Source: Actinostola sp. cb2023
Lineage: Eukaryota > Cnidaria > Anthozoa > Actiniaria > Actinostolidae
Length of the DNA: 64,000 nucleotides
NCBI GenBank assembly: GCA_033675265.1
Contig: JAUJYZ010001162.1
Coordinates: 676,001-740,000, forward strand
Direction: 5' to 3'
A program made the translations under genes and the position numbers. Below the pieces are notes generated by a model, which did not search any database, was not told the DNA's origin, and worked only from the letters and a program-made list of their open reading frames with translations. Shown here piece after piece: positions 13,981 through 57,590 of the stretch. Positions within the stretch are counted from its first letter, which is position 1. Each line of letters opens with the position of its first letter.

Positions 13981-16900
13981 TTAAACCATAATAACACGAG
14001 CCTGGTCATCACCATCATCACCATCATCATCATCTTCTTCAAGACATTCCGTCCCAGTTCTTCCATAGTGGTCTTCTTTAAAAGCCGTATAAATATCCAC
14101 ATCGCTTAGGTCTATATTAGACTGTAGACTCATTGGACCTTGAAAATGCGTCTCCTCTGCACCTATGACTTCTCGTCGTCCAGGTATGCGTACTGGACTG
14201 GAGTAATCGTGCGTAGTCTTGACAACTTCTCGTGAATGACATGTTTCGGTCATGCGCACTGGATGGGAAGACTCTCCATTGCTTGCGTCTTTAACGACGT
14301 CAATCCCTTTCTCCACGTCGTCAGACTCTGCGTCGCTGTCAATCTCGATTTGTTTCGCAGCTGAACGGTCAGCACGTGCACATATCGTCCACCAGTTATC
14401 CTAAAGAACACAATCAGATAATGAATGAATTAATGAATAGACTTTATTTATCGAGGGTAGCACGTGACAGTTTGTATAAACTGATGACCCTGTGGCCCTC
14501 CAATAACTATACTTGATAAGCGATGGTGTCGACAGAGAACGCTTGTATATTAAACCACAATCTTAATACTCCAGCTTCGAGTTGTTTACACACTGCTGTA
14601 CTCCTTGATAAAAGACGTGTTTGCTCAGGCTTAGCCTCAATCCAGAGAATAACCCGTGCAATTAAAAATGGTTTCTATTGTTGAACGTCAACACTTTTTC
14701 GCGTTCTCGTTGGTATTTGTGCATAATTTACACTGAATTGAGGCTAAGCCTGAGCAAATGCGTCTTTTGTCAAGGACAGCGGTCATCGCTTAACAACTCG
14801 AAACTGGAGTATTACATCTACAAACTGTCTGTTGTCGTCTTCAGGTGTTTCTAAAAGGTACATACGCGCAATGTACAACCTTTACTGATGATAATAATTA
14901 ATGTTTGACGTGATACTTACATACAGAGCAGTTTCCCATTGCGAGGCAGCGAGGTCTTCAGAGTTTGAATGGACCTTCTTCTTGATGCTTCCTTCGTGAC
15001 ATACGTAAAGCTGTAGATGCAAATATTATTAGTAATATTACACTGGACATCAGTCTGTGGCCAATGTTGGAAGGCTGGGTTCGAGTGTTTTCATTGGCTG
15101 AATTAGTTACAAGATTTTTGAGGCGTTTGCCCTCGATGAAAGACTAGTGGAAATATCACTTGCATGGATTCAACGTTCTTTCTTCAGCACATTGGATAGG
15201 CTATGCAGTTTTTAAATTATACACTCGTACCCAGTCTTCCAATGAATTTGCCACAGATTAGTTTGACTAGCATAACGTCACACCTGACATGCGCAGTGGT
15301 GTCATCGGCTTTCTTATATACCCAATATCATAACTCTTTTGTCTCCTGAGCCGCATACACAGAATTGTTATGTTTCAGTCTAAATGCCTTCAAGTACCTG
15401 GTTATGGGGACCTGTCGATAGATAGGACACGCTGCCTTCTTGCATTTTCCATGCCGTCCCTTCAGGGTACGTGTCTGTGATGTTTATACGGAACCACAGT
15501 GCGTCTAAACACAAACGAATAATAGCAACATCAACAACACTTTACTTTATCTGTAATCATTTGATATGAATACGTTATTCGTACCATCGGTATCTCTTGC
15601 CCAAACGGACGGTGTTCCTGCCGACACTTGTACAAGATATGGAGGCTTCTCCCCGATATGAAACCAACAACTACCTACATGAGAAACATCAACATTATAC
15701 TCGATACAATGTATCTAATCAAGTGTTTTTTTAGAAAAAAATGGGTGCACAGATAGACATGCAGACAGACATGCAGACGGACATACAGACAGTCATGCAG
15801 ACAGACATGCAGACAGACAAACAAACAGACATGCAGACAGACATGCAGACGGACATGCAGACAGACAGACAGACATACAGACATGCAGACAGACAAACAA
15901 ACAGACATGCAGACAGACATACATGCAGACATACATGCAGACACACATACAGACAGACATGCAGACAGACATGCAGACAGACAAACAAACAGACATACAT
16001 ACAGACATGCAGACAGACAGACATGCAGACAGACATGCAGACGGACATACAGACAGACATACAGACAGTCATGCAGACAGACATGCAGACAGACATGCAG
16101 ACAGACAAACAAACAGACATGCAGACATACATGCAGACAGACATGCAGACAGACATACAGACATGCAGACAGACATGCAGACAGACAGACAAACAGACAG
16201 ACATACAGACAGGCAGACAGACATGCAGACAGACATGCAGACGGACATACAGACAGACAGACAGACATACAGACAGTCATGCAGACAAACATGCAGACGG
16301 ACATACAGACAGACATGCAGACAGACAAACAAACAGACATGCATGCAGACAGACACAAACAGACATACATACAGACAGACATGCAGACAGATAGACATGC
16401 AGACAGACATGCAGACGGACAGACATGCAGATGGGAGCATAGACGGAAGTAGTTAGCCCGAAGATATATATACAATAGACAGACCAGACCAATACAAAGA
16501 CAGACAGTACAGGCAAATACCAAGCAAGTAGTGATTAATAAAACGACTGACTCATATGCAGACAGACAGATACATGTAGATAGACAGACAGACAGGCAGA
16601 CAGACAGACAGACGGGAGCATAGACAGACAGGCAGATAGACAGACAGGCAGACAGACGGGAGCATAGACAGGCAGGCAGACAGACAGATAGACAGGCAGA
16701 CAGATAGATATAGATAGACAGACAGGCAGACAGACAGACGGGAGCATAGACAGACCAGACCAGACAAATCAGAGTGAGGTATTCTATACCTGTCATTTTG
16801 CTTTCAGCAAAGCCTGCCCTGAAGTATGTGGTGCCATTCTGAGCCACACCCCACACACGACCCTCGCCACCAATTGATATACTGACAAAGGGAACATCTG

Positions 16901-25900: not shown

Positions 25901-28900
25901 GCATGTACTTAACGCAAATACCTGAAATACATAAATGACCATTTATACTAACAAGTATTGTTGCTACAGATATGATGAGCATGGTGATGATGATGGTAGT
26001 GGTAATGATGATTATAATGTTTTAAATGGAGTTAAGGTCATGGTACTAATTCAACCAATCACAGTGCGCAAAATCATTGCTCAACCAATCAGAATGCTTG
26101 GACATGGCACGGTCACCACATGGCATAATCACTGCATTGATGATTATGATGGTGATCATACTAGAATACTATACTAACTAGAAACATACCTGGTCATTAG
26201 GACCCACAGAAAGCAGTAAGAATCTCCCAACCATTTCAATCCAGCTTGTTCCTGTTACGTCTTTTGTACTTGACCTTACGTCACCAGTATTAACACCTTT
26301 TCTAAACCAAACCTGCTCATCTTTTGTTAATGCCCATAAACTATGGACACCTGCAGCAATTTGTAGCAAAGGACAAATCTCTCCACTGGATGACAATGAT
26401 GGAGCATTCACCTCAACCCACTGGGTACCTATAAACAGCAACGATTTGAGTAATGGACACCTCCTGTAAACAGACACCTCCTGTAAGCAGACACCTCCTG
26501 TAAGCAGATACATGTACATGTACCTCCCATAAGCAGACACCTCCCATAAGCAGACACCTCCCATAAGCAGACTCCTCCCATAAGCAGACACCTCCCATAA
26601 GCAGACACCTCCCATAAGCAGACACCTCTCATAATCATAAGCAGACACCTCTCATAAGCAGACACCTCCCATAAGCAGACACCTCCCATAAGCAGACACC
26701 TCTCATGATCATAAGCAGACACCTCCCATAAGCAGACACCTCCCATAAGCAGACACCTCCCATAAGCAGACACCTCCCATAAGCAGACACCTCCCATAAG
26801 CAGACACCTCCCATAAGCAGACACCTCCCATAAGAAGACACCTCCCATAAGCAGACACCTCCCATAAGCAGACACCTCCCATAAGCAGACACCTCCCATA
26901 AGCAGACACCTCCCATAATAAGCAGACACCTCCCATAAGCAGACACCTCCCATAAGCAGACACCTCCCATAAGCAGACACCTCCCATAAGCAGACACCTC
27001 TCATGATCATAAGCAGACACCTCCCATAAGCAGGCCTTCCCATAAGCAGACACCTCCCATAAGCAGACACCTCCCATAAGCAGACACTTCCCAAAGGTCC
27101 TGAACATTTCTTTCTCCACTAAAATAATACTTTGTATAACCCTCTTGGTTCCAAGGGTGTCCGTTTACAGGACGTCAACTCAATATCATCCATTATATTC
27201 TATATACACAACCAATGAATATACATGTACATACAATGTACCTGTGGGTTGATAATATGTGACACCATTATGTTATACAACCAATGAATATACATGTACA
27301 TACAATGTACCTGTGGGTTGATAATATGTGACACCATTATGTTATACAACCAATGAATATACATGTACATACAATGTACCTGTGGGTTGATAATATGTGA
27401 CACCATTATGTTATACAACCAATGAATATACATGTACATACAGTCATTTGCAAAAATTCTGGCCGTCACGAAATATCAATATATCTTTATATCGGGTGCA
27501 TTATGGGTAATTAAATAATCGAAAATTTTCCTTAAAGCGGGTTAACGCCAGCAAAGTTGGTAGAAATATTTAGTATAATGTTTATTTTAGTCTTACGTTT
27601 GTTATTTATAAATGTTGCTTCATTTAATAAGTTAGGAAACTCAAAATAGTATTATTTAATTACCCATAATGCACCCGATATATTGATATATTGATATATC
27701 GCGGGCGGCCAGAATTTTTGCAAATGACTGTACAATGTATTTTAGTGTGGGTTATTTATATATGTGACACCATTATGTTATAAAACAAAATGAATATTTA
27801 TGTACCCACAATGTACCTGATATATTGATAATATGTGACACCATTATGGTTATACAACCAATGAATATACATGTACATACAATGTACCTGTGGGTTGATA
27901 ATATGTGACACCATTATGTTATACAACCAATGAATATACATGTACATACAATGTACCTGTGGGTTGATAATATGTGACACCATTATGTTATACAACCAAT
28001 GAATATACATGTACATACAATGTACCTGTGGGTTGATAATATGTGACACCATTATGTTATACAACCAATGAATATACATGTACATACAATGTACCTGTGG
28101 GTTGATAATATGTGACACCATTATGTTATACAACCAATGAATATACATGTACATACAATGTACCTGTGGGTTGATAATATGTGACACCATTATGTTATAC
28201 AACCAATGAATATACATGTACATACAATGTACCTGTGGGTTGATAATATGTGACACCATTATGTTATACAACCAATGAATATACATGTACATACAATGTA
28301 CCTGTGGGTTGATAATATGTGACACCATTATGTTATACAACCAATGAATATACATGTACATACAATGTACCTGTGGGTTGATAATATGTGACACCAACAC
28401 GTACAACTGCTGTACCATACCTATGTACCATACCTATATACCATACCTATATACCATACCTATATACCATACCTATATACCATACCTATATACATGTACA
28501 TACAATGTACCTGTGGGTTGATACATGTGACACCATACAATGTACCTGTACCATACCTATATAATATGTGACACCATACACGTACATACTATATACCATA
28601 CCTATATACCATACCTATATACCATACATACCTATATACCATACCTATATACCATACCTATATACCATACCTATATACCATACCTATATACCATACCTAT
28701 ATACCATACCTATATACCATACCTATATACCATACCTATATACCATACCTATATACCATACCTATATACATGTACATACAATGTACCTGTGGGTTGATAA
28801 TATGTGACACCAACACGTACAACTGCCACACCTTCCCAGGTAACTCCCCACAAGATACCAGTCTTGCTGACAGACAGCTGTGTGATAGTTCCATTAGGGG

Positions 28901-32515: not shown

Positions 32516-33045
32516 TGGCAACAAGTTGTTGGCCCTCTTCTCTTTCTTAAAACCCGAATTATTTCTTTATCGATCTTTGACAGGCTTCCCAAGAAGCCTT
32601 GAAGTCTTCCTCGGTGAACGATGAAGAGATGTCATAGCGAGATGTGAAAGGAAAGGAGAATTTAAAATTTAAACAACAAAAACAAATACGTGAAGCAGGA
32701 AAGTACAGGAAGTAAATGTGGCATTATGTCATTCGCATTGTTTATAATGAGCAACCGCTGGCAATGAATACCGTGTTTTTTATTATCGTGATTTATCAGA
32801 AATTATCCTAATTTTAATAAAGAAATACAAAATATATATTTCTTTCGAGGTTTTTATTCAAAAAAGATTGCAATATTTTATTGCTAAAATTACTGTCCAG
32901 CTCGATGAACAAAATGTGCTAAATTTCTTGTCATTTTATTTCCTGATTGGGTTTCCTGTGTTATTGATGACCATATTAGGAACATAGACATAAATGAGTT
33001 TTGCGAATTTCACGTACACGTAAGTTTAGTTCATTTTTCGCTCAA
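32516..33045. promoter_or_regulatory. Divergent promoter interval, TECPR1 / NUDT1
   Basis: The start codons of TECPR1 (minus, 32515) and NUDT1 (plus, 33046) are 530 bp apart with no other exon between them, so both 5' untranslated regions and promoters must lie here unless distant 5' exons exist. I see no clear TATA box. Confidence 0.6.
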
Positions 33046-36031
33046 ATGAACATGGCTAAAAACAAGATCCTTACGCTTGTCCTCGTTCATAACACCACAA
33101 AAGTTTTACTCGGGATGAAGAAACGTGGATTCGGCGTTGGACGATGGAATGGTTTTGGCGGGAAAGTGGAGGCAAATGAAACTATCATGGAAGGCGCCAA
33201 AAGGTACGTGGAACCACGTGCGCGCTGGCCTTTCCTTGAATCGTGCCTGCTTGTTGGCACAGAGATTAAAAAGTCTGTATGGACCTTCTAGGATTAGCGT
33301 ATAAAGCTATTTTACTAATCGTATTTAGATTTAGCAAGGCACCAGTACGTTAATTAGACACGTGACAAAAATAACTCAATATTACGTTTTGTCTGGCAGT
33401 TCAAACTTCCTTTAAAAACCTTTGACTGACAAGACTATCACTGTCATGTACTAACAACACAAGAGAACCGATAGGCTATTATTATAGGTATTTATGGGTT
33501 TCCTTTGGTTTGACACAGGGAGCCCACACACCAGGGGTTGAGCACATATACATACTGTATTTATTAATCCTTGTAGTCAAAAACTATGCAGGATGTTAAA
33601 AATAGTCAACATGCTCACTATTATAATGTAAACAACATTGCATAATTTATATAATTTTATATTCAGTTTCTGTATATATATTGACATCATATTATAATTA
33701 TTCTTATTATTAATATTTAAACTTCTAGTGTAGTTATGCTGTTCTAGAAGTAACTCATTAAAGATTAAAGCTGGTAATCACACTATTTTGAGCGTGTGCC
33801 CAATTGCTCTGCAATTTATTGCACATAATACATCCTCGGGAACCCAGGGGTATATTCTGTTGCTCGTTACTCGCTCCCAGAGAAATACCCCTGGGAACGA
33901 AGTCTGTTGGAACTTGTTCCGGAAGTCAAAATTCAAAATCGCATCTGTCCTATTCAAACCAGAATGGTATACTTGATACTGATTGGTCGAACGAGAGTAA
34001 TTTTGACTTCCGGAACAAGTTCCAACAGACTTTGTTCCCAGGGGTATTTCTTTGAGAGCGAGTAACGAGCAACAGAATATACCCCTGGGTTCCTGAGGAT
34101 GCACATAATATTGCCAAAGTACAAACATAGTCATATCACATTGTACTTCAATAAGGGACATTTCATGAGGGACACTTCATGAGGGACATTTAGACTAAAT
34201 ATCCGTCATTACTATGCATGAGGATGCAAGTCAGTCCCTTATATACACCAGGTGTACACACAATCATTGGGACCCAAGAGCAAACCAAAGAGTATTTAAT
34301 CACTCTCTACTTATGGTAACTCGAGCATTCAAGATGTGTGGGACAATTGTTTTGCTTAATTACGCATGCGTTAACGATGTTCTGAATATCAAAACAGAAG
34401 GAAATCTGCAAAAGCCAATGCAAAGAATATTCTATTTCACTTATTTTCTCTATTTTTCACACAATGAAGTATTATATTATTCGGCAATTTTCTCCGATTT
34501 TCAGTATGCTCTACTTCGGCGGCGTAAACCGACCTTCCTCCATTTCTGATCTGTGTACCTTCAGGTACTCTGCTTATTAATATATACTCTTTCATTGTGT
34601 AAATGAAACAAAGATGTGCAACTTGAAGCATTCCCCAGAGTAAATGTCTAATCAAGAGTCTTTCACAAAACATATATGGAAAATATTATTCTCCTTTGCG
34701 CCGGAAATTGGACGAACTCAAGCCTGTATTTTTATTCATTTTTCCTCGGTGATCATGGTATTTACAAAAACTAAAATACATCGCTTGGGAAAACTTTTTT
34801 GTTTGAAAACATTTTAGCCCCATACTTAGCGTATTGGAAGAACTATGACCTGCGGACATTTTTGTTGGTTTTAGAATTTTGATTTTTTGAGTTAGTAGTT
34901 CCTCGGTAGAGTCAGTAAAAGTCCCGAGGCCTAACCCTCCCTTGGCTTCGGGGACATTTAATCACTAATATCCCTCAGTGCCATGATATTACTTAGAGTG
35001 ATTCCAATAAAAACCCGAAGGCACTACTTTAATTACTTTATTTTGTCAGTGTCTAAATTTTAGATGCTTTTTATTATGACGAACATTGCGTCAGATTTTA
35101 CCAACGAAAGTTTAAAATACCACACTACCTTCAATAAAGAAACTCTGAAAGTTGTATTTCATTTCATGGAAGATTTTGTCTAATGATTTTGGAAAAAGAG
35201 ACGTTTTCAATTTAGAAATTTTGGGTCATTTATGCCCACCGTAGTATATTCTCCTTTTTAATAGTACTAAATAGTGCTATTTCTATTGTTTTCTATTGTG
35301 AATAAATGCCCCCTTAGCCTCGTTAGTAGCTAGTTTAGTACTAATTAGTGATATTATTTAGTGATTTCAAGCTTTTCTAATTTGAACAAAAGACAACAAA
35401 AGAGTGAGTGTAATAGTGTGTATTGGTGTAGTTAGTAATGCCCAGGTTTATTGGAATCACTCCATAATAATACAAACTCTGCTCTATTGCATGCAGTGCT
35501 AGGTGCACCAACATGTTTCTGCACTTTGTTTTAGGGAACTACAAGAGGAGTGTTGCTTGCATGCCAAAAGTCTTGCAGAGGTTGGAATATTACTGTTTGA
35601 ATTTGTTGGAGATCCAGTGATTTTGGAAGTCCATGTATTTAGAACAGAAGAATATCAAGGCGAGCCAACAGAAACGGAAGGTATTTCATGTTAAAATGGT
35701 TTTCAAATGTACTTTATTGTTCAAAACTATTATATTAAGTTAGTATAAAACTGAACCCTAAATAAAATCCTTTTCTAAATAAGTTAGTGTTAAAAAATAC
35801 ATTTTTGACAAAAAATACAATAAAAATATCAATACAAAAGTTTGCCTTATTTCTATTATAGAAATGCGTCCTCAGTGGTTTGACCATGACAAAATACCAT
35901 TCAACGACATGTGGCCTGATGATGTATTTTGGCTTCCAAGTCTTCTTGAGAAGAAGAGGTTTCATTGTTATTTTAAATTTGAAGGACATTCAAAAATCTT
36001 AGAATCCAGAATAGATATTAGTGATAATTAG
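33046..36031 (+). CDS. NUDT1: Oxidised purine nucleoside triphosphate hydrolase (MTH1)
   Basis: Hydrolyses 8-oxo-dGTP, 2-OH-dATP and related oxidised purine triphosphates to monophosphates, keeping them out of DNA. Three exons: 33046-33203, 35535-35680, 35862-36031 (phases 2 and 1), giving 157 aa from MNMAKNK or 155 aa from the second ATG at 33052; human MTH1 is 156 aa. The Nudix box GX5EX7REUXEEXGU spans the first junction: [15 protein letters not shown], then R-ELQEEC. The usual Gly after EE is Cys here, as the sequence reads EECCLHAK. Substrate-pocket features are kept: [13 protein letters not shown], the WPDD motif in [11 protein letters not shown] (base recognition by the paired Asp residues) and FHCYFKFEG near the end. 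Head-to-head with TECPR1 and tail-to-tail with the RING gene at 37086-39893. Confidence 0.96.
33831..34101. mobile_element. 271-bp MITE with 9-bp target duplication (MULE-like)
   Basis: Inverted-repeat arms of about 100 bp with ends CATCCTCGGGAACCCAGGGG and CCCCTGGGTTCCTGAGGATG. Flanked by identical CACATAATA copies (33822-33830 and 34102-34110). A 9-bp duplication with long inverted repeats suggests a Mutator-like family. Located in NUDT1 intron 1. Confidence 0.85.
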
Positions 36032-37085: not shown

Positions 37086-39893
37086 TTATGATGTTAAAAA
37101 GGTAGTAGTAGGTGATTGTCTGGGGCTCTTCTTATGTTGAGGTTGTTGAGGAATGGCAACATGAAATCCTCTGATGCAGCCTTCCAGGTTGTCAAGCTTT
37201 CCACATGACTGACACTGAAAGAGTAAGAACTGTCATTACTAAAACATCATCATCTTGGGGCTGCCACTGAATTTCCATTTTGCTGGACTGACACTGACTG
37301 GTCTGATTTAATAACACGTACAACTCAAGCATCTTGCATTGGACATGATTTACATCAAGGAGCAGTCAGTCCAATAAAATGAAAGTGCCCTTGTTGACAA
37401 CTCTAGGCAGGCATATCACAACTTACTTACCATCTATTTTGTTGTGATGTACATTTGCATTCGATGAAGAAAACCAAGTCATACAGAGAAAATAAAGGAA
37501 ACTTAAACATTAGATTTTGATATTATTAATCCACAACTCATTGTATCTCAACCATTCTGTTACTCAAGTTGATACCTTCCTAGTCCTAGTTGTTTTAAAT
37601 TTAAAGCATATATAATCTTGAGTGTCTGCCTCAAGAGCTGATGGCTCATTTGGGGGGGGGGGGAGGGGGGGGGGTCACAAGCTCGCACTGTATAGTGTAT
37701 TTCAGCATATTTAGTAATGAACTTGGTAAATAAATTGAGTGTGCATTACATGTACTTACCCCCTGTAGACAGTGGATACAATAGATCATGTAGAAAAAAG
37801 GGAAAATATTTGCAGGTTAGTGACTTCCACAACAAGAATACAATATTATTCTCATAAAACAAATAAAACTTACCCCCTTTGCACACCAAGTGAAGGGAAA
37901 TATGAAAAAGAAAAGCATTTTAAAATCAATTTCTTAGATACATGTTCAATAGTCATAACAATTCAGTGAGTTTAGTTTTGGTTTTACATGTAGAATACTT
38001 ACAAACTGATGAAAAATGGAACATGAAAAGAGAAAAATAAATTTGTCAGTACATTGATAGCCTACTGTATTCACAACATACAGATCAGAACATTGATAGC
38101 CTACTGTATTCACAACATAGAGATGTTTTTGTATGAGTGGGAAGGTTATGGTACTGTTCCGTGCTGGATTGAAAGAGTTTGATTGGTTGAGATACATCTG
38201 CACACTTTTTGATTCATTGAGAAAGGAAGCCACTACAATACACACAGGTCAGGGGTGTCGAATGGTCCCCGCAAAAAGTCAGTCTTGCAAAACTTTGGTC
38301 AAATTTCGCAGATCTCGTGTTTTCGCTAAAAGCCGTCTCAGAGTCTCGAATTTTGAAAACAAAGGAAACCGGTGAAAAAGCGTCTCAGGCTCGCAAAAGT
38401 ATGCCTTGTTTCGGAGTCTCGCAAAGTCTCACCTTGACCATTCGATACCCCTACACACATACACATGTATTTTGTTTTCAAAAATAATGTTTAGTTACAG
38501 ACACTCACCACATCTATGATCTTGAATATCAAATATGAAAAATTAAAAACAGATATGTTAGTATCTTTTAAGTTTAAAATTGTTGGATAGAAACACAAAT
38601 GGCATGCAAGCATTATGCTTACCGGCTAGTTGAACATAGTACATGCAATGAGAAATTTATGAAAGAAAAGAGAGAGAAAATAAGATTAGTGAATGAAACT
38701 TGGGTACTTTGGTCAAAGAGTGATGGGGAGATGAGAAGGATTTTTGGGGGTTCAGGAAACTAATTAAGTTATTTTGTGGGGGGTGGGGGGGATTATTTTG
38801 GGGTAGTGAGATCCTGGCAGGTTTTTTGGAATGTTTAAATCAATTGTTAATACTGTTAGCAATTTCATGTTAAACAAGCACTTTTTTTTTGGGGGGGGGG
38901 GGGAGGGGGGGGGGGGGGGGGGGGGGGGCATGAGTATTTTTCATGGATCCATTCATACCTCCCCATCACTGATTCCTCCCCTCCTGAAGTCCCAGGTCAA
39001 AACCGTTAGTTATCAATTATGTATAAATGGACATACGTACTCCTTCATGACACTGGCACGCTTGATCATTATTTGTTTCCTCAACGAAGAGCTTTCTGCA
39101 ATTCAAACACAGCATTACAGTATCTGGAGATGCTGCAGCACTGCTTCCGCTTGACCTCAACCTGCCTGAATAAGTGCTCAGTCTACTGAGAGGGGGAGAG
39201 GCACGTTCCTCCTCCATTCTGATTGGACTAGGGCTGCGTGATCCAGTCCTGGTTGGGTTATTTCGATATATTGCAGACCATAATTTGTTTTTTTCCACTT
39301 CCCTCTCATCCAGTGTTCTTCTAAAGGTGTCTTGATCTACTTGTCGCTTGTGTTCTCTGACTAAGGCATTCATTTCCCGTCTGTTTTGAACGATCATATG
39401 AAGATTTCTCTTCATCCCACACTTCGTTACCAACTGATGCGTTCTCAAGTTCAAAAAACTGCGTTTGGAAAGCACAATTTTCACACTTCATAACTCTATA
39501 ATCGCAAACACTCAAATGTTGAGGTAAATCTCGCCTTCTAACTTTCTTGGTGCACCCAATGTTTGTACACAACGTGAAGGTTAGTGGACATTCGTTGCTT
39601 AAATGGTTCTGCAGCTCTCCCACTGTAATCGCCATCTCACAGCCCTTGGTACAGTTCATTCGCAATGCCTCATAACGCTTCAACCACGATGTATCAAGCT
39701 GGTTATGTCCATTGCCCATTGAACACCCACACACATGACATTTGAGTCGTTTCTTTACTCTTTTGTTGAAGCATTTTGCACACAAAATATGCAAGCAATC
39801 GGTTACTATGGGCGAATGCAACACTTTTCGACAACTGGTACAAATGAATTCTTGTGGAACATTGTCATCAAAATTATCCAAATCTATCCCCAT
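37086..39893 (-). CDS. RING finger and TRAF-type zinc-finger protein, frameshifted, with candidate microexons
   Basis: Probable E3 ubiquitin ligase. The N terminus (MGIDLDNFDDNVPQEFICTS) with CTSCRKVL, DCLHILCAKC and CHVC is a RING finger like those of the NRDP1/RNF41 and PDZRN families. TRAF-type zinc fingers follow (CTKGCEMA..HLSNEC, CTNIGC..HLSVC, CENC..H-x5-C). Exon 1 (39893-39041) is out of frame by one base: the first frame fails after a run of six T on the coding strand (39458-39453). Reading five T restores the TRAF-type His/Cys spacing and a long open tail rich in Ser/Pro/Arg to CLNCRKLF and CQCHEG at the donor (GGA|GTACGT). The last exon (37214-37086) opens CQSCGKL, has GC and GFH, and ends at TAA. 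Between them are candidate microexons (separate entry). Head-to-head with HAGH. Confidence 0.75.
38050..38128. repeat. 39-bp direct duplication
   Basis: Two adjacent copies of a unit containing ATTGATAGCCTACTGTATTC and ACAACATA, differing at one or two bases, within the RING-gene intron between two candidate microexons. Confidence 0.8.
38248..38452. mobile_element. MITE with AGGGGTGTCGAATGGTC ends
   Basis: Left end AGGGGTGTCGAATGGTC, right end GACCATTCGATACCCCT. Interior is rich in GTCTCGCAAA-type repeats. About 205 bp in the RING-gene intron. No convincing target duplication seen. Confidence 0.7.
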
Positions 39894-49000: not shown

Positions 49001-52000
49001 ATAGCAACCCCCATCATAACTGATAGGACCCTTATTACTGAACATGATCCCTACCCCCACCAATAGTGATCCCCATCATAACTGATAGGACCCTTATTAC
49101 TGAACATGATTCCTGCCAGATTCAAGTATATGATATTGCAGTATGTTTTTATAATATATCATGTGTTTTGTATGATTTTTTTAGGGGATACATTATTCAG
49201 TGGAGGGTGTGGTCGTTTCTTTGAAGGAAGTCCACCAGAAATGTACAGAGCACTGATAGAAATCTTGGGTAGTCTTCCTAGTGATACAGTAAGCATCAAG
49301 TTGTTTGTTACCTGTCACTATGCCTGCTATAAACAGGGTCTGGAAGGGGTTTTGTGTGACTCAGGAATTGATTTGAATTGATTTAAAACCATTTGTTGTG
49401 ATTTGGGAATTATATAATGCTTGTGACGCATGATCTGCTCAATCTGAGGGTCATGGTTCGGGATTTTCACTGTCAAACTTTTGGGATGCTGTTACATTCT
49501 ATTACATGATGCACCGGCCTTGGTTCATATATGTCTTATGTCTTTGGGACTATCTGTCAACATGCCTTAGTTATTTGCACGATTCAGGAATTTGAGATTC
49601 GTGATGCAGACCCCCCCCTTCCAGACCATGTATAAACTGAGGTTGGAAACAAATTACAACCTTGGCAACTGAAAAGCAAGCCTTATTGTTATCCCGTTAT
49701 CCACAGAAAAAGAACTATCTTTGCAATGGGGACATTATTGATGGGGTGGCAAATGGCCAGGCTGAGAAATATTAAAAGAGTCTTGCGAAATTTACCCAAA
49801 TCTCAAATTCTTGAATTTTTTTCTGATGTGTATCAGTGCCTTGGATTTCCAAAATGTTGAGTCTATATTGTCTTACAAGCCAAAAGATCTCAGGATCTTG
49901 TAAAGTCTTGCTTATACCATACACCATCCCTGGACAGAGGAGAAATGACATTGGGGAATATATTTATTCAAGTACTACTAGTAGTTAGACTATATATGGA
50001 GAATACTCAATGTCGATCAGTCCAATCCTTTATCTATTCAACACTTTGTCTTTTCAGATGGTTTATTGTGGACATGAATACACTATACAAAATCTACGTT
50101 TTGCCCAACATGTGGAACCAGACAACCCACATGTCAAGGAAAGATTGGCATGGGCTCAGGTTAGACCTTACTTCCCTTCCCTTCCCTTCCCTTCCCTTCC
50201 CTTCCCTTCCCTTCCCTTCCCTTTCCCTTCCCTTCCCTTCCCTTCCCTTCCCTTCCCTTCCCTTCCCTTCCCTTCCCTTCCCCCTTCCCTTCCCTTCCCT
50301 TCCCTTCCCTTCCCTTCCCTTCCCTTCCCTTCCCTTCCCTTCCCTTCCCTTCCCTTCCCTTCCCTTCCCTTCCCTTCCCTTCCCTTCCCTTCCCTTCCCT
50401 TCCCTTCCCTTCCCTTCCCTTCCCTTCCCTTTTCCTTTTCCCTTTTCCTTCCCTTCCCTTCCCTTCCCTTCCCTTCCCTTCCCTCCCTTCCCTTCCTTCC
50501 CTTTTCCTTTCCTTTCCTTTCCTTCCCTTTCCTTCCCATTCCATCCCTTTCCTTCCCATTCCATCCCTTTCCTTCCCATTCCATCCCTTTCCTTCCCATC
50601 CCATCCCTACCCTTTCCTTCCCATCCCTACCCTTTCCTTCCCATCCCTTTCCTTCCGAATGTTGAAAACTACATATTCCACACACATGTATAATTTTGAA
50701 GATACGAATAAATATCGCGGAGAAAACCGCTGTTAAAGTTTATGCAAATGAAGACGATTTTCTATCAGATTTACAACACTCGTCACGGTTATGATTTCAT
50801 TTGTGTTTTCCTCATGAATTATAATAATAATAATTAGTAATAATAACAGTAATAATAATACTAATCATAATAAAGATGGTGATGGATGATCACAGATATG
50901 ATGATGATAACACCATAAAACAGGCTATTGGGGAATAGTCACCTGCCAGACATCCTTTACTTCATTACTTTATTGTGTTCAAAATCACGGTGGGTAGCGC
51001 ATGCGTCACGTAGTTTCATCCGTGTAAATAAAACATTTTTGACTCCTGGATCTTGTAAATACGACTTAGTTTTCTTTACGATTGTAATTAGGAATTTCCT
51101 TCCCCAAGTCTTCGTTTTATTAATTACTTACACACAGACGCCGCGTAGACCATTTGTAATTTGTTAGTTTAATAGCTGATAATAACGACGTTCATGTTTG
51201 GCAAACATTCATTCAATCAATCAATCCGACCCGCAGGCACCGCCAGGGCCACATAACATCATTTACGTTTACGAGTAAATCATTTGTATAAAAACACACA
51301 AGCAGCACATTACTACCTTATTTGGGGATTTAGACTTCATTGTTTACCCAAGGAATGATTTCAATAGCACACGAAGTCTCCTACGACTAACAGATACACA
51401 AATACACTGTGCCAAAATACGCATTTTGAAAAGTCTGCTATTTTGCCCGTCCCTACGGAGACGATGGATTTGCGCTTTCAAAGGTGTCTACTTTGGAAAG
51501 CGTATTCAAAAGATCGCGTTTTTAGTGAAAACGATCTCGTCGCCATGTGGACGGGACACGAAAACACATAAACTACTCTGCGTCTTCGAATAGAAGCCTG
51601 AGGGTGGTCACTGCCAGAGGTTTCTTTAATCACACTTTAATTTCCCCCGAAATTTCTCTTCTTTTTTAAAATTTAAATTTAGATGCGCGGACTTGGATTT
51701 TTTATATTTAGACCTGAGTCGGCCCGCAAACGTATGCCAAATCAATTTCCTGTTGTTTGCCAAGAATAACTACTGTTTTTAGATAGAACACTTAACGCAC
51801 TATAAATAGCGCTATAGAAATCAATTTCTGTCATCGTTATGATAACACAAATTAGTATGTTGCGGATAAGCTGAGTGTTTGTTATAAAGCCTGTTTGCCA
51901 GTAGTCGTATAACACCAATACAGGACGGCTGTATAGAGGCTGCGGTATTTGGTTCATTTATTGTACAAGTTATCGTATCATTTATAGTCACGCTATTGTT

Positions 52001-55000
52001 ACGTAGGGGTTACCTGGGGGGAGGGGAAGGGGTACACTTTCTTTATAAGTAAATGTGTAAATCTCTAGCGATGCAACCATAAAAATAAAAATGTCATGTG
52101 AAAACGGGACCGACGCAAGCAGAAGCAGAAGCGATGGACAAATCGTGATCCTTGTGCTTATGAATGCGTCAGGCCCGGTTTTACCACAGTATAACGTTCG
52201 CTTCTTGTGCTCGTGCTTATGAATGCGTCAGGCCCCGTTTTACAACAGTATAACATTCGCTTCTTGTGCTCGCGCTTATGAATATGTCAGGCCCCGTTTT
52301 ACCGCAATATAACGTTCGCTTCTTGTGCTCGCGCTTATGAATATGTCAGGCCCCGTTTTACCGCAATATAACGTTCGCATCTTGTGCTCGCGCTTATGAA
52401 TGCGTCAGGCCCGGTTTTACCGCAATATAACATTCGCTTCTTGTAAAACCAGGCATAACTGATACTTTGTATTGTAATCATTATATTTTATCTTGGTTGT
52501 CATAGTTGGCTTAATAAATCCCTCACCTCCCTGGATAGTATACAGTCGTGCAATTATTCACCTTCAATCCATCTGTTTTCGATTGAGTATTTTTTTTTTT
52601 ATTCTCAGAAAGCAAGACAGGAAGATAAACCCACCATTCCATCAACGATCACACAGGAATTCCAGTTCAACCCATTTATGCGTGTTAGGTAAGGTTACGC
52701 GGTATTGACGTATCATAGTAGGTCAAACCAGCGTATCATGCATGGACTAAATATAAACGTAGAACAAAAGCGCCGCCCACCACAGGGCGTATTTACATGG
52801 ATGGTGGACTCACAAAGAGATGGATGGATGGATGGGAATTCAGTTTGGCGTCACGTGTTCTGTCGAAACAAGCGAGCGTGGAGTGCACACTAGGTTTTTG
52901 TCGACCAAGGAAAGAACGAATCGATTGAATTCCTGAATGCACATCTGGATCGCAATTCATGTGGTGGCAATGACCTTACTGTACGATATCGTTAATCAGA
53001 AATCAAATCCCGCTATTCTTGTGATATAGTATGAGAAAGGGCACTGGCTATTTCTGTCTGTGCCACACAAAGCGCGGTTTAGTTAGCTGCCTATCATCAC
53101 GTGGAGACTGTTGTCAATCGCCCTAAACGCAGCTTAGACGGCGATAACACGATTAGACGTCCTTGGTCTTCCCTCCCATGGATAGATAAACTGCATTTTC
53201 AGAACGCGATGATTTTCGATTGTCAAGGCATGCTGCGGTGGACATGATAGTGTGTGCAAGCGATATCCCTCCTTCAAGGGATGAAGGAATGGAGTAGAGG
53301 GCACATTGTCCATGGAGCACTGATGAAGGGATGGAGTAGAGGACACATTGTCCATGGAGCACTGATGAAGGGATGGAGTAGAGGGCACACTGTCCATGGA
53401 GCACTGATGAATGGATGGAGTAGAGGGCACATTGTCCATGGAGCACTGATGAAGGGATGAAGTAGAGGGCACACTGTCCATGAAGCACTGATGAAGGATT
53501 GGAGTAGAGGGCACATTGTCCATGGAGCACTAATGAATGGATGGAGTAGAGGGCACATTGTCCATGGAGCACTGATGAATGGATGGAGTAGAGGGCACAC
53601 TGTCCATGGAGCACTGATGAATGGATGGAGTAGAGGGCACATTGTCCATAGAGCACTGATGAATGGATGGAGTAGTAGAGGGCACACTGTCCATGGAGCA
53701 CTGATGAATGGATGGAGTAGAGGGCACATTGTCCATGGAGCACTGATGAATGGATGGAGTAGAGGGCACATTGTCCATGGAGCACTGATGAAGGGATGGA
53801 GTAGAGGGCACACTGTCCATGGAGCACTGATGAAGGGATGGAGTAGAGGGCACATTGTCCATGGAGCACTAATGAATGGATGGAGTAGAGGGCACATTGT
53901 CCATGGAGCACTGATGAATGGATGGAGTAGAGGGCACACTGTCCATGGAGCACTGATGAATGGATGGAGTAGAGAGCACATTGTCCATGGAGCACTGATG
54001 AAGGGATGGAGTAGAGGGCACATTGTCCATGGAGCACTGATGAATGGATGGAGTAGAGGGCACATTGTCCATGGAGCACTGATGAAGGGATGGAGTAGAG
54101 GGCACACTGTCCATGGAGCACTGATGAAGGATTGGAGTAGAGGGCACATTGTCCATGGAGCACTAATGGATGGATGGAGTAGAGGGCACATTGTCCATGG
54201 AGCACTGATGAATGGATGGAGTAGAGGGCACACTGTCCATGGAGCACTGATGAATGGATGGAGTAGAGAGCACATTGTCCATGGAGCACTGATGAATGGA
54301 TGGAGTAGAGAGCACATTGTCCATGGAGCACTGATGAAGGGATGGAGTAGAGGGCACATTGTCCATGGAGCACTGATGAATGGATGGAGTAGAGGGCACA
54401 TTGTCCATGGAGCACTGATGAATGGATGGAGTAGAGGGCACATTGTCCATGGAGCACTGATGAAGGGATGGAGTAGAGGGCACACTGTCCATGGAGCACT
54501 GATGAATGGATGAAGTAGAGGGCACATTGTCCATGGAGCACTGATGAAGGGATGGAGTAGAGGGCACACTGTTCATGGAGCACTGATGAAGGTGTAGCAA
54601 CTGAAGCCAACTTCACTTACAATTTCCTTTATTTATTCAGTAGGTTTCTCTGTGTTCTTTACATTTTCTATCTCTCTACTTATGGGGATAGAGAGTGTAC
54701 TTGGAGACGTTTAAGGACCTTTTTGATATGCACCGGACTGTTCTCTTTTGCAGAGTACTCGTATCCCTTCGCGCATGCGATCCCGCCTTAAGTACCCCTT
54801 CCCTCCCATGGGACCTCCCAAATACCCATGACATCCTTCCCTCTCGAAATGGGGGGGGGGGGGGGGGGGGGGGGAGAGAAAATGAGAAATAAGCAGGTAG
54901 AATACAAAGATGTGGAAAGAACACGTGGATGATGGTGGATGTGGCAGGCATGGTGGGGACCGTATGTTGGTAGCAGACCCAATTTGGATCTGCCATCCAT

Positions 55001-57590
55001 CTCGGTGGATGTCTCACTCGTCTAGGTCGAGGTTCACTTTCTAATTGACTCCCAGGTTGACTTTCCACTTCTAATGGACTTTCTCTTTCGGAGACATTAC
55101 TAAAGGCTGTCTCTTGAGCTCCACTGGGGCTTTGTCCATTGCGACTCGTACTAACATCCCCTGGAGTTCCGCTGAGAATTTCTCTGTCGAATGGGCTAGT
55201 GTGAGTCGCACTGACGCCCCCTGGAGTTCCGCTTGGGATTTCTCTGTCGAATGGGCTAGTGTGAGTCGTGCTGGCGTCTTTTGGAGTTCCGCTTGGGATT
55301 TCTCTGTCGAATGGGCTAGTGTGAGTCGTGCTGACATCTTCCGTCGATGCCATTAATGGCGTGTTTTCATTCCCCCCATGTCCCTCTCTCAATCCTATCG
55401 CGTACTGATTATTATCTTCCTCGTCACTTTCAGGGATCTCTACAGATTTAGGAGATCTGACAGTAAACTCTTTACACGGGCGTTGACTTGTCGATTTTTG
55501 CTCCATTTCATATAACGGTAGCAGAGGGTTCTTTTCCTCCCCACTCCATCTTCTCTGCGATTGATGTACACAGGGATGTCTTCGTTTCGGCTTCTGTCTG
55601 CTGACTTATCTCGGCCTCGAGTGCGTTTACTTTCCTCATCACCTCTTCAACTGTCGATTTCATTGAAGAGAACTCCGATGGAGTATTTGCTAATGTTGCT
55701 CTTGCTCTTTCTTGCAGCGGTAAATGGACGACTTGTGCTCGCCTTGTTGATTTACCCCACAATTTATCACTTTCTAACCTCTTGCTCAGCAGCTCTTACT
55801 TCGGCCAGTAGGGAGTCAAAATCTCTTATGTGGTCTAATCTATGTCTTGTCACATTTTTGACTCTGTAACATTTCGTCTGCCTGATGTCTTGAAACCATT
55901 CCACGGTCAATTGCACTACTGATTGTATCTTCAAGTCGGCAACCATAAGCAGGAACTCCTTCGCCATCTTCCTGGTGGCTATTGTAAAACCGTTGTAGAA
56001 TAGCAGCTCCACTTTTTACGACACCATAAACTCTTTCTAGTTTTCTTAGGATCTCATCCACTGATGCACCTTCGCCGAGGTGCACGACTAGTTTTCTGGC
56101 TTCACCCTTTAATGATCGTCGTACACTTTGAGTAATGAGGTCCTTTGGATAAAGACCATCTTTTACCAGACATTTTACTTGCCAGGCTTCAAACGATATG
56201 TCTGTCTTCGTTGCACAGCCAGAAAAAGTAGACAGTCGTGGAGGTTGAGGAAATATCTGGGCATCGAGGAATCTGCTATGGCCAGAAGCACTTCCACAGG
56301 GCGGCAAATTTGGAGGTGGTGAAAAGAGTTTACTGTCGCGGAATTCTCCACCAATAGCGTAGCGGTCCACCGGTTCAATATTGAATAATCCAGATCGTTG
56401 AAGTAAGTTGGCAGCTTTTGTGAGTTCTTCAGTCTCTTCCGTTGGGCGCCAAATGTAGCAACTGAAGCCAACTTCACTTACAATTTCCTTTATTTATTCA
56501 GTAGGTTTCTCTGTGTTCTTTACATTTTCTATCTCTCTACTTATGGGGATAGAGAGTGTACTTGGAGACGTTTAAGGACCTTTTTGATACGCACCGGACT
56601 GTTCTCTTTTGCAGATTACTCGTATCCCTTCGCGCATTCGATCCTGCCTTAACTACCCCTTCCCTCCCATGGGACCTCCCAAATACCCACGACCCTTACA
56701 AAGGGATGGAGTAGATGGCACACTGTCCATGGAGCACTGATGAATGGATGGAGTAGAGGGCACACTGTCCATAGAGCACTGATGAAGGGATGGAGTAGAG
56801 GGCACACTGTCCATGGAGCACTGATGAAGGGATGGAGTAGAGGGCACACTGTCCATGGAGCACTGATGAATGGATGGAGTAGAGGGCACACTGTCCATAG
56901 AGCACTGATGAAGGGATGGAGTAGAGGGCACACTGTCCATGGAGCACTGATGAAGGGATGGAGTAGAGGGCACACTGTCCATGGAACACTGATGAATGGA
57001 TGGAGTAGAGGGCACTGTCCATGGAGCACTGATGAAGGGATGGAGTAGAGGGCACACTGTCCATGGAGCACTGATGAAGGGATGGAGTAGAGGGCACACT
57101 GTCCATGGAACACTGATGAATGGATGGAGTAGAGGGCACATTGTCCATGGAGCACTGATGAAGGGATGGAGTAGAGGGCACACTGTCCATGGAGCACTGA
57201 TGAAGGGATGGAGTAGAGGGCACACTGTCCATGGAGCACTGATGAATGGAGTAGAGGGCACATTGTCCATGCTGTTTTAGAAGTAACTGATTAAAGATTA
57301 AAGAATAAAGCACTGATGAAGGGATGGAATATAGAGGGCACACTGTCCATGGAGCACTGATGAACGGATGGAGTAGAGGGCACACAGTCCACCCCTTGGA
57401 AGACCAGCCTTTTGGGTGAAGGGGCATGGACGTTAAATAGTGACATTTACATTCAATATCACTGTCTGTGGAGCTTTAACCATTTCTTTTGTACTTTAGG
57501 GAAGAAAGTGTACAGAAACACACATGCAAAGCAGACCCCATAGAGGTCATGGGAGCACTTAGGAAAGAAAAGGATCATTTCAAGGCTTGA
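40079..57590 (+). CDS. HAGH: Hydroxyacylglutathione hydrolase (glyoxalase II), mitochondrial and cytosolic forms
   Basis: Hydrolyses S-lactoylglutathione to D-lactate and glutathione, the last step of methylglyoxal detoxification. Nine coding exons, all GT..AG and phase-consistent: 40079-40178, 40894-41084, 42320-42384, 46188-46305, 48062-48167, 49185-49288, 50058-50159, 52609-52688, 57500-57590. Initiation at 40079 gives about 318 aa with a basic leader ([15 protein letters not shown]) typical of mitochondrial import. Initiation at the ATG at 40980 in exon 2 ([17 protein letters not shown]) gives 256 aa, matching the human cytosolic form (260). In that numbering the dinuclear metal site THHHWDH has H54, H56, D58 and H59, with H110 (TPCHTSGH), D133 (TGDTLF) and H172 (CGHEY): the full ligand set. 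FNPFMRVR and the C-terminal [10 protein letters not shown] are the conserved glutathione-binding end. Introns carry many repeats and transposons. Confidence 0.96.
41025..41209 (+). repeat. 107-bp tandem duplication of the HAGH exon 2 end with its donor
   Basis: The last 60 nt of exon 2 (from CTTGTGATTGATGAAAAGAC) plus the donor and about 20 intron bases recur identically 107 bp downstream (41132 onwards), so two identical donors follow each other (41085 and 41192). Using the second one would retain an in-frame TAG, so the first is presumably the functional site. Confidence 0.9.
41263..42215. mobile_element. MITE of the ACTTGCACTAAGAGGTCA family, split by a hAT-like element
   Basis: The left part (41263-41498) matches the family copy at 57702-58162 in order: GACTTGCACTAAGAGGTCA, AACTCCAGAAATGAAAAGAG, then GGAAAATGCATTGGATGGCA. 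The right end GTCACGCGACCTGTTAGTGC appears only after the inserted element at 41499-42181. So the hAT-like element jumped into an older MITE in HAGH intron 2. Confidence 0.7.
41499..42181. mobile_element. 683-bp hAT-like non-autonomous element
   Basis: Ends CAGGGGCGTAGCATGC and GCACGCTACGCCCCTG (16 bp, one mismatch), with a 5-bp flanking duplication TGTTG (41494-41498, 42182-42186). CAGGGGCG...CGCCCCTG ends are typical of hAT elements. Most hATs make 8-bp duplications, but some lineages make 5 bp. No transposase frame is present. Confidence 0.8.
43710..43900. repeat. Imperfect GCTTTTTGCTTTTCATTTTTC repeat
   Basis: Tandem units of about 21 bp grouped into roughly 69-bp blocks by a GGTTTTTGTTTTCGG spacer, within the MULE-like element. 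The Phe/Leu-rich and Lys-rich open frames across it are artefacts. Confidence 0.85.
45121..45213 (+). mobile_element. LINE/SINE 3' tail
   Basis: TTGTAAAGCGCCATTGGGCT followed by GGAAATGGCGCTTTATAAA and an (ATT)n tail is the common 3' end of L2/CR1-type retrotransposons and dependent SINEs in marine invertebrates. Nested within the MULE-like element. Confidence 0.6.
46957..48005. repeat. 31-bp minisatellite in HAGH intron 4
   Basis: About 33 copies of CACAGACCTCAGCCTTCACT plus TCAACTGATAT. Variants TTTGCTTTGGCTGAT alternate with TTCACTTCAACTGAT. It ends about 55 bp before the exon 5 acceptor. Confidence 0.95.
48455..49110. repeat. 62-bp minisatellite in HAGH intron 5
   Basis: About ten copies of a 61-62 bp unit containing CATAACTGATAGGACCCTTA and CCCCCACCAATAGC, nearly identical to one another, ending about 75 bp before the exon 6 acceptor. 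Confidence 0.95.
50164..50655. repeat. (TTCCC)n pyrimidine tract abutting the HAGH exon 7 donor
   Basis: A 490-bp TTCCC array, degenerating to TTTCC and CCATCC units, starts within 10 bp of the exon 7 donor (CAG|GTTAGACC at 50160). This is a pure polypyrimidine strand and a candidate for triplex or slipped structures. Confidence 0.95.
52150..52445. repeat. 59-bp minisatellite in HAGH intron 7
   Basis: About five copies of a 59-bp unit containing GCGCTTATGAATATGTCAGG and TATAACGTTCGCTTCTTGTG. The GTGCTCGCGCTTATG part resembles pieces of the inverted repeat at 17020-17290, so it may have grown from a transposon. Confidence 0.85.
53274..54592. repeat. 42-bp minisatellite in HAGH intron 8, left block
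   Basis: About 31 copies of a 42-bp unit (TGGAGCACTGATGAAGGGAT, GGAGTAGAGGGCACATTGTC). Unit length is 14 codons, so long open frames appear on both strands but are not genes. The array continues after an LTR element at 56701. Confidence 0.95.
54593..56700 (-). mobile_element. 2.1-kb non-autonomous LTR retrotransposon (Ty3/Gypsy-like)
   Basis: LTRs 56700-56454 (5' LTR) and 54833-54593 (3' LTR), TG...CA ends, nearly identical. The primer-binding site begins 56451 (TGGCGCCCAACG, as for a tRNA-Lys). A purine tract (GAGAGGGAAGGA) precedes the 3' LTR. The 4-bp flanking AAGG comes from the minisatellite unit. The interior has a Gag-like region (56370 to about 55510) broken by a frameshift and a stop, then an open frame 55506-54676 with three copies of a 60-bp Ser/Thr repeat and a basic RRVRHPPRW segment like the end of Pol polyproteins. 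Protease, reverse transcriptase and integrase are absent, so it is an internally deleted, dead copy. Located in HAGH intron 8. Confidence 0.88.
54850..54873. repeat. Poly-G tract inside the LTR element
   Basis: A G run beside the purine-rich tract that precedes the 3' LTR (in element orientation a C run). Confidence 0.85.
56701..57395. repeat. 42-bp minisatellite in HAGH intron 8, right block
   Basis: Continuation of the array at 53274, about 16 copies, with a different variant mix (mostly GGCACACTGTCC). A 40-bp foreign piece at 57270-57309 (AGAAGTAACTGATTAAAGAT) also occurs at about 33747, so it is probably a retrotransposon tail. The array ends about 105 bp before the last HAGH exon. Confidence 0.95.

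Follow-up and report, generated by a model that had tools for sequence, protein, structure and literature searches.

Exons of only three nucleotides have been reported in homothorax (PMC7392893), in PICALM (PMC4148152) and in Ncam and TnT (PMC8042270), and RPS24 is described as having microexons of 3, 18 and 22 bp in a row (PMC11162997). The micro-exon genes (MEGs) of flatworms contain short exons that follow one another in runs and whose lengths are multiples of three; MEG exons of Schistosoma are mostly 15 bp long, their range being 6-81 bp according to the text of the paper and 3-81 according to its abstract, and the proteins are secreted (PMC10526429). An operational definition used for a tapeworm asks of a MEG at least seven exons, at least half of them micro (<70 nt and divisible by 3), and a run of at least four (PMC7653826). 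In plant microexon tags, a microexon of 5 nt and one of 12 nt lie next to each other in the same coding stretch, which the authors read as gradual intronization (PMC8831610, PMC11096116). In recursive splicing, a larger interval is removed stepwise through ratchet points, at which an acceptor and a donor are nearly superposed (PMC8605326). Here we analyse a gene of the sea anemone Actinostola sp. cb2023 that lies in a 64,000-nt stretch of contig JAUJYZ010001162.1 (positions 676,001 to 740,000 of the forward strand; hereafter the window, to which all positions refer unless a contig is named). This RING/TRAF-zinc-finger gene occupies 39893-37086 on the minus strand and has eight predicted exons, six of which are microexons. 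We consider it highly probable that these six are spliced in order and that the residues they encode, PIIDVFGGM, form the spacer of a CHORD-like zinc domain whose two halves flank it.

What the locus shares with RPS24, homothorax, PICALM, Ncam and TnT is the one-codon exon between ordinary splice sites. As described, however, those genes have one 3-nt exon, alone or among longer ones, whereas here five single-codon exons and one four-codon exon would stand in one run and are apparently needed together. As predicted, with 8 exons, 6 of them micro and in a run of 6, the gene falls within the tapeworm definition of a MEG. Unlike the flatworm genes, it codes for a protein with RING and TRAF fingers, and most of its microexons measure 3 nt; no signal peptide is evident by eye in this protein with its RING-like and TRAF-type fingers. 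The plant tags, in the cases described, involve two adjacent microexons and no single-codon run, compared with six microexons here, and ratchet points leave nothing behind, whereas each site in the window would leave one codon. Micro-exon genes, microexon runs of modest length and single exons of 3 nt are already known; no run of single-codon exons was found in the open-licence literature, absence from which is not absence in print.

The first exon (39041..39893) is predicted to encode RING-like and TRAF-type zinc fingers, a linker and the first half of the CHORD-like domain. Pfam recognised zf-TRAF in it at E 2.8e-08 and zf-RING_5 at E 0.0011, the latter under its curated cut-off. The exon ends in phase 0 with ...CQCHEG (...LCLNCRKLFVEETNNDQACQCHEG) in front of the donor gtacgt. 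The last exon (37086..37214) starts with CQSCGKLDNLEGCIRGFHV and runs to the stop codon. An earlier note, made from the letters of the window, had claimed that five AG-NNN-GTAAG sites and one AG-12nt-GTGAGT site lie between these two phase-0 exons, and a scan of the 1,826-nt interval on the minus strand returned exactly those sites. The six predicted microexons are, in order, CCG for P (38623..38625; donor gtaagc), ATCATAGATGTG for IIDV (38509..38520; donor gtgagt), TTT for F (38003..38005; donor gtaagt), GGG for G (37874..37876; donor gtaagt), a second GGG for G (37760..37762; donor gtaagt) and ATG for M (37431..37433; donor gtaagtaagt). When 39041 is linked to 37214 by way of the six pieces, every junction is in phase 0 and the product reads ...CHEG-P-IIDV-F-G-G-M-CQSCGK..., so that the in-frame order of products that had been claimed holds. 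The predicted introns measure 415, 102, 503, 126, 111, 326 and 216 nt; seven phase-0 introns would thus fall within nine codons, between microexons of 3, 12, 3, 3, 3 and 3 nt.

The arrangement of the sites was compared with expectation in several ways. GTAAG occurs six times in the interval and five of these have an AG exactly at -5; the sixth, at 37426, overlaps the donor behind ATG and has none. In the whole window, AG-NNN-GTAAG is present five times on the minus strand, always within this interval, and twice on the plus strand. Dinucleotide shuffles of the interval (n = 5,000) contained a mean of 0.05 such sites and at most 3. When the best of 61 spacings was taken for each of 1,000 shuffles the maximum was again 3, a value reached in 2 of them. 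As control DNA we used 200 kb of the same contig, taken as 20 stretches and read on both strands. It held 15 AG-NNN-GTAAG sites, from which 0.045 are expected per 1.2 kb, and no cluster of at least three within 1,250 nt. The assertion that the chain is hard to ascribe to chance is borne out by these counts. Pattern searches of the genome were also made. A search for paired sites behind a strict pyrimidine tract, a pattern that excludes the window's own pairs and is therefore of little weight, found 0 matches against 5 and 5 in the reversed control; another found 2,576 and 3,057 against 11,162 and 11,044, and the places listed all belonged to one GTAA simple repeat, so that the triple of the window did not stand out.

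The splice signals around the six pieces were then ranked against the rest of the interval. The donors read GTAAGT (four), GTAAGC and GTGAGT. Of 105 GT dinucleotides, five match the full six-position donor, namely four microexon donors and the overlapping repeat behind ATG. The AG-free stretches before the six acceptors are 42 to 71 nt long, compared with a mean of 20 over all 83 scored AGs, and rank 2, 3, 5, 8, 9 and 16. By pyrimidine content, four of the acceptors rank 2, 5, 6 and 9 of 83, and that of the 12-nt exon, with a pyrimidine fraction of 0.60 over 50 nt, ranks 20. It had been stated that every site follows an AG-free, pyrimidine-rich stretch; the AG-free part stands, whereas the pyrimidine-rich part is weaker at the 12-nt exon and at the ATG site (0.52). 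Branch-point-like ACTAAT, ACTAAC or ACTGAC occurs 35-58 nt upstream of four of the six acceptors, as a raw occurrence: ACTAAT 58 nt before CCG, ACTAAC 35 nt before the 12-nt exon, ACTGAC 38 nt before TTT and ACTAAC 52 nt before the second GGG. All six pieces fall in the 3-30 nt size range of microexons and are bounded by consensus splice sites, except that two acceptors deviate just before the AG. GCATG, which we take to be an Rbfox-type motif, occurs on either side of the CCG microexon (38600-38650, minus strand), about 20 nt upstream and about 15 nt downstream.

The decisive evidence that the pieces are exons comes from a relative. A profile built from the window protein and two relatives retrieved eight stored database proteins (P0001-P0008). 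In six of them (P0001, P0003, P0004, P0005, P0007 and P0008) the family likeness ends right after H-E-G, H-K-G or H-R-G and V... follows, as would be seen if the frame read on into a phase-0 GT donor; P0002 ends before the H-x-G site, and P0006 continues through it. P0006 comprises 24 member sequences, with a longest contig of 1,283 nt, and is 46% identical to the window product over a match that spans 94% of the query; its first half matches TRAF5 and TRAF6 structures (7.9e-11 and 6.4e-07). At the critical place it reads ACSWHKG-PVVDVFGGM-CQTCGRLDNLEGCIRGWHV (continuing CQTCG...), where the prediction for the window is ACQCHEG-PIIDVFGGM-CQSCGKLDNLEGCIRGFHV. The nine-residue spacer is therefore retained at the matching place with seven residues identical and the other two changed from I to V, and P, VVDV, F, G, G and M of P0006 pair with the six microexons in order. 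The claim of the earlier note that P-IIDV-F-G-G-M fills the spacer between CHEG and CQSCGK is supported by this relative. As to circularity, the first sequence of the search profile held the predicted spacer; P0006 is a stored protein and its nine residues are its own. When these nine residues were aligned to the interval in pieces bounded by in-frame AG...GT, the best path consisted of the six predicted exons and scored 46, a perfect match being 48. The maximum over shuffled intervals was 2 with GTRAG donors (300 shuffles), 18 with GTRNG (300) and 21 with any GT (40).

The window gene is probably the orthologue of P0006, because it is the clear best match of that protein in the 424-Mb genome to which the window belongs (E 2.5e-45; next other locus 4.7e-17) and because residues 306-329 fall at the last exon (71% identity, E 3.1e-4). 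P0006 had 38 matches in this genome, and the best outside the window gene, a RING/TRAF-type frame at G000:C675:533280-533888 (318 aa open), covers residues 5-197 only. The C-terminal domain had two matches there, both exons of the window gene. In the search for relatives, this domain alone as query gave no matches, and no relative in viral or GTDB contigs was confirmed. Taken together, the case that the six pieces are exons appears strong, and the interpretation of the earlier note is very probably correct, as far as a relative's protein can tell. Use of the exons in this species, the order of removal, near-constitutive inclusion and a helper factor are what we infer from it.

The domain that the spacer would complete was compared with CHORD. 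Its residues follow the same order as in that domain (C..C, F, N, AC..H.G, P, C..CG). A phmmer search of PDB, with the predicted microexon residues in the query, placed CHORD-containing protein 1 first (2yrt, E 0.022), ahead of RAR1 (0.3) and coagulation factor VII chains (0.36 and up). From HEG to the C of SCG there are 12 residues with the microexons and 3 without them. The exons of CHORDC1 in the same genome, as we join them, read HPGIPVFHDALK followed by GWSCC and HPGEPIFHEG followed by YKFWTCC, with 12 residues from HPG to CC in both CHORDs. Because the spacing would drop from 12 to 3 residues, a direct 39041-37214 junction is expected to break the CHORD-like domain. The C-terminal domain together with the nine residues matched PF10418 at E 0.028, under the cut-off, and had no match without them. 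Across the genome there were seven Pfam-CHORD matches; four, on C1283, read as CHORDC1. The remaining three, on C1554, C584 and C667, looked spurious when their frames were read by eye and were set aside.

Several observations weigh against splicing of the whole chain. The likeness to CHORD is weak: in residue order and 12-residue spacing the predicted domain resembles CHORDC1, but Pfam CHORD (PF04968) does not match the window protein at E up to 10, nor P0006 at E up to 1. P0006 is taken as an mRNA by inference, because its nearest relatives (58, 68 and 70% identical) carry the intron, and in its species the spacer may be contained in a single exon. The acceptor of ATG has a poor tract (pyrimidine fraction over 50 nt ranked 37 of 83), and in two acceptors an A directly precedes the AG. 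Clusters also form at other spacings: in the window, spacings of 38 and 58 reach 6 and 3 sites in minus-strand stretches starting 50500 to 48700, and in the control DNA at least three sites are reached in 25 cases when stretch, strand and spacing are combined, the largest cluster having 54. We take these clusters to be tandem repeats. Finally, a run of six T in exon 1 (39441-39461, minus strand) brings a one-base frame slip relative to P0001 and P0007, so that the window copy could be damaged; yet P0007, 95% identical, is continuous there, and the slip may reflect a base error or a damaged allele in the assembly.

That chance, low complexity or tandem duplication of one intron piece made the sites is an account to which we attach next to no probability. 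A loose T-rich core is shared among the upstream tracts and other spacings do cluster, as just described, but neither the shuffles nor the 200-kb control yield clustering at this spacing, the flanks of the units are not homologous, and such an origin would not produce the P0006 match, by which it is already contradicted. The earlier note had seen in a TTTTCTTTTTCAT-like core either a common enhancer or a trace of duplication. The core is present only loosely, as one 19-nt stretch that recurs twice more at 79%. Thirty pairwise comparisons of unit flanks revealed no clear homology (smallest p 0.040), and the closest pair around the microexons, 18 nt at 83% between the two GGG exons, is mostly the splice motif itself. 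Because the flanks are not homologous, neither a common enhancer nor the idea that the units arose when one intron piece was duplicated finds support, and the latter was rejected. Very improbable, too, is an account in which a single conventional small exon elsewhere supplies the nine residues and the AG-NNN-GTAAG sites act as decoys. Spurious strings of consecutive micro-exons are reported to have been proposed by a spliced aligner over what is one simple coding region (PMC10166558). In the window this warning is without support, because no contiguous spacer is encoded there: P[IVL][IVL]D[VI]FGGM with up to 3 substitutions is absent from both strands of the 64 kb, and all six blocks lie in order between consensus splice sites. 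The interval contains only three-residue scraps, GGM at 38962, VVD at 37537 and IID at 39020 and 38520, the last being the 12-nt exon. A second gene copy with the spacer in one exon was not found in the genome by searches that are blind to a lone 27-nt exon.

Recursive ratchet points could remove the intron piecewise and leave no codons in the mRNA. Tandem acceptor-donor sites are described as the mark of such points (PMC8605326), and three of the acceptor-to-next-donor spans are exon-sized (117, 132 and 117 nt), the other two being 518 and 332 nt. Ratchet points, however, juxtapose AG and GT, and at none of the window sites does GT follow AG directly: three nucleotides lie between them at five sites and twelve at one. 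Because three bases separate AG and GT at the five, use of the sites keeps a codon, and the kept codons agree with P0006; we regard this account as very improbable. A further account accepts the chain and makes it alternative, with isoforms carrying subsets of the codons that tune the zinc domain in the way neural microexons tune interactions. Every unit is in phase 0 and a multiple of three, so any subset stays in frame, and GCATG flanks the first microexon on both sides. Against this, the nine residues are nearly unchanged in P0006, a protein only 46% identical, and the spacing of the domain seems to require all of them. Such alternative use strikes us as unlikely.

Ordered splicing of all six microexons, which we prefer, raises the matter of how exons of this size could be joined. 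Assembly of the spliceosome across a 3-nt exon in the exon-definition mode is held to be sterically infeasible (PMC8378409), and a 3-nt exon would be too small for it. Most likely, the chain is instead processed by intron definition, one intron per step: the upstream exon would grow by being spliced to each acceptor in turn, and the donor that immediately follows the newly added codon would then serve the next step. The outcome would be a recursive-like splicing that leaves one codon per step. In a recursive variant, each acceptor would be recognised together with the donor of the next unit, over spans of ordinary exon size (117, 132 and 117 nt) in three pairs and of 518 and 332 nt in the two others. 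Microexons of worms and mouse cells are reported to depend on PRP-40/PRPF40A, a proposed bridge from U1 to the branch point across the intron, and a short flanking intron is said to relieve this need (PMC8378409). Here three introns are short (102, 111 and 126 nt) and the other four measure 216-503 nt. A PRP-40/PRPF40A-type bridge would be the obvious candidate for a helper, while a dedicated factor is not required in principle. Tentatively, then, the locus could work as a codon-by-codon ratchet, in which successive steps each add one codon and present the next donor, and which is constitutive, old and kept across the lineages of P0001-P0008; we hold this possible, but would not yet back it over the sum of other mechanisms.

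If true, the chain means that seven introns can be accommodated within nine codons and that splicing can join single-codon exons in series, and it suggests that splicing is able to assemble a protein one amino acid at a time. The gene would put the spliceosome's handling of exons below the reach of exon definition to a stringent natural test, and would offer a convenient system in which to study the order of events and what takes part in them (PRP-40/PRPF40A, recursive steps). Such exons would probably escape gene predictors and standard mapping of RNA-seq reads, and the gene would then be called broken or domain-less. Within the coding part, the seven predicted introns all lie inside the nine codons; the 853-nt first exon has none, and the first exon of the relatives is likewise undivided. 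This distribution points to a gene with few introns, perhaps a retro-copy, in which introns were gained at a single place, and raises the question of how seven introns gathered in 27 nt when the first exon shows none.

Some further features were observed. Non-coding RNA in the interval was considered and rejected, since Rfam gave only three matches (E 0.43-0.67), far under gathering scores and located in a poly-C tract. On the plus strand, a NUDT1/MTH1-like gene of about three exons, named by eye, adjoins the RING gene at 33041-36030. Repetitive stretches with long open reading frames, several of them on both strands, inflate the lists of such frames at 15700-16500, 26200-27100, 27800-28400, 50000-50700 and 53100-57400. 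Elsewhere in the genome, a long GTAA/GTGA simple repeat at G000:C37:261634-262669 swamps searches with GTAAGT patterns. In the control DNA, an isolated AG-TCT-GTAAGTA stands behind a T-rich stretch at L017:2049 (plus strand), which may be a further 3-nt exon or chance.

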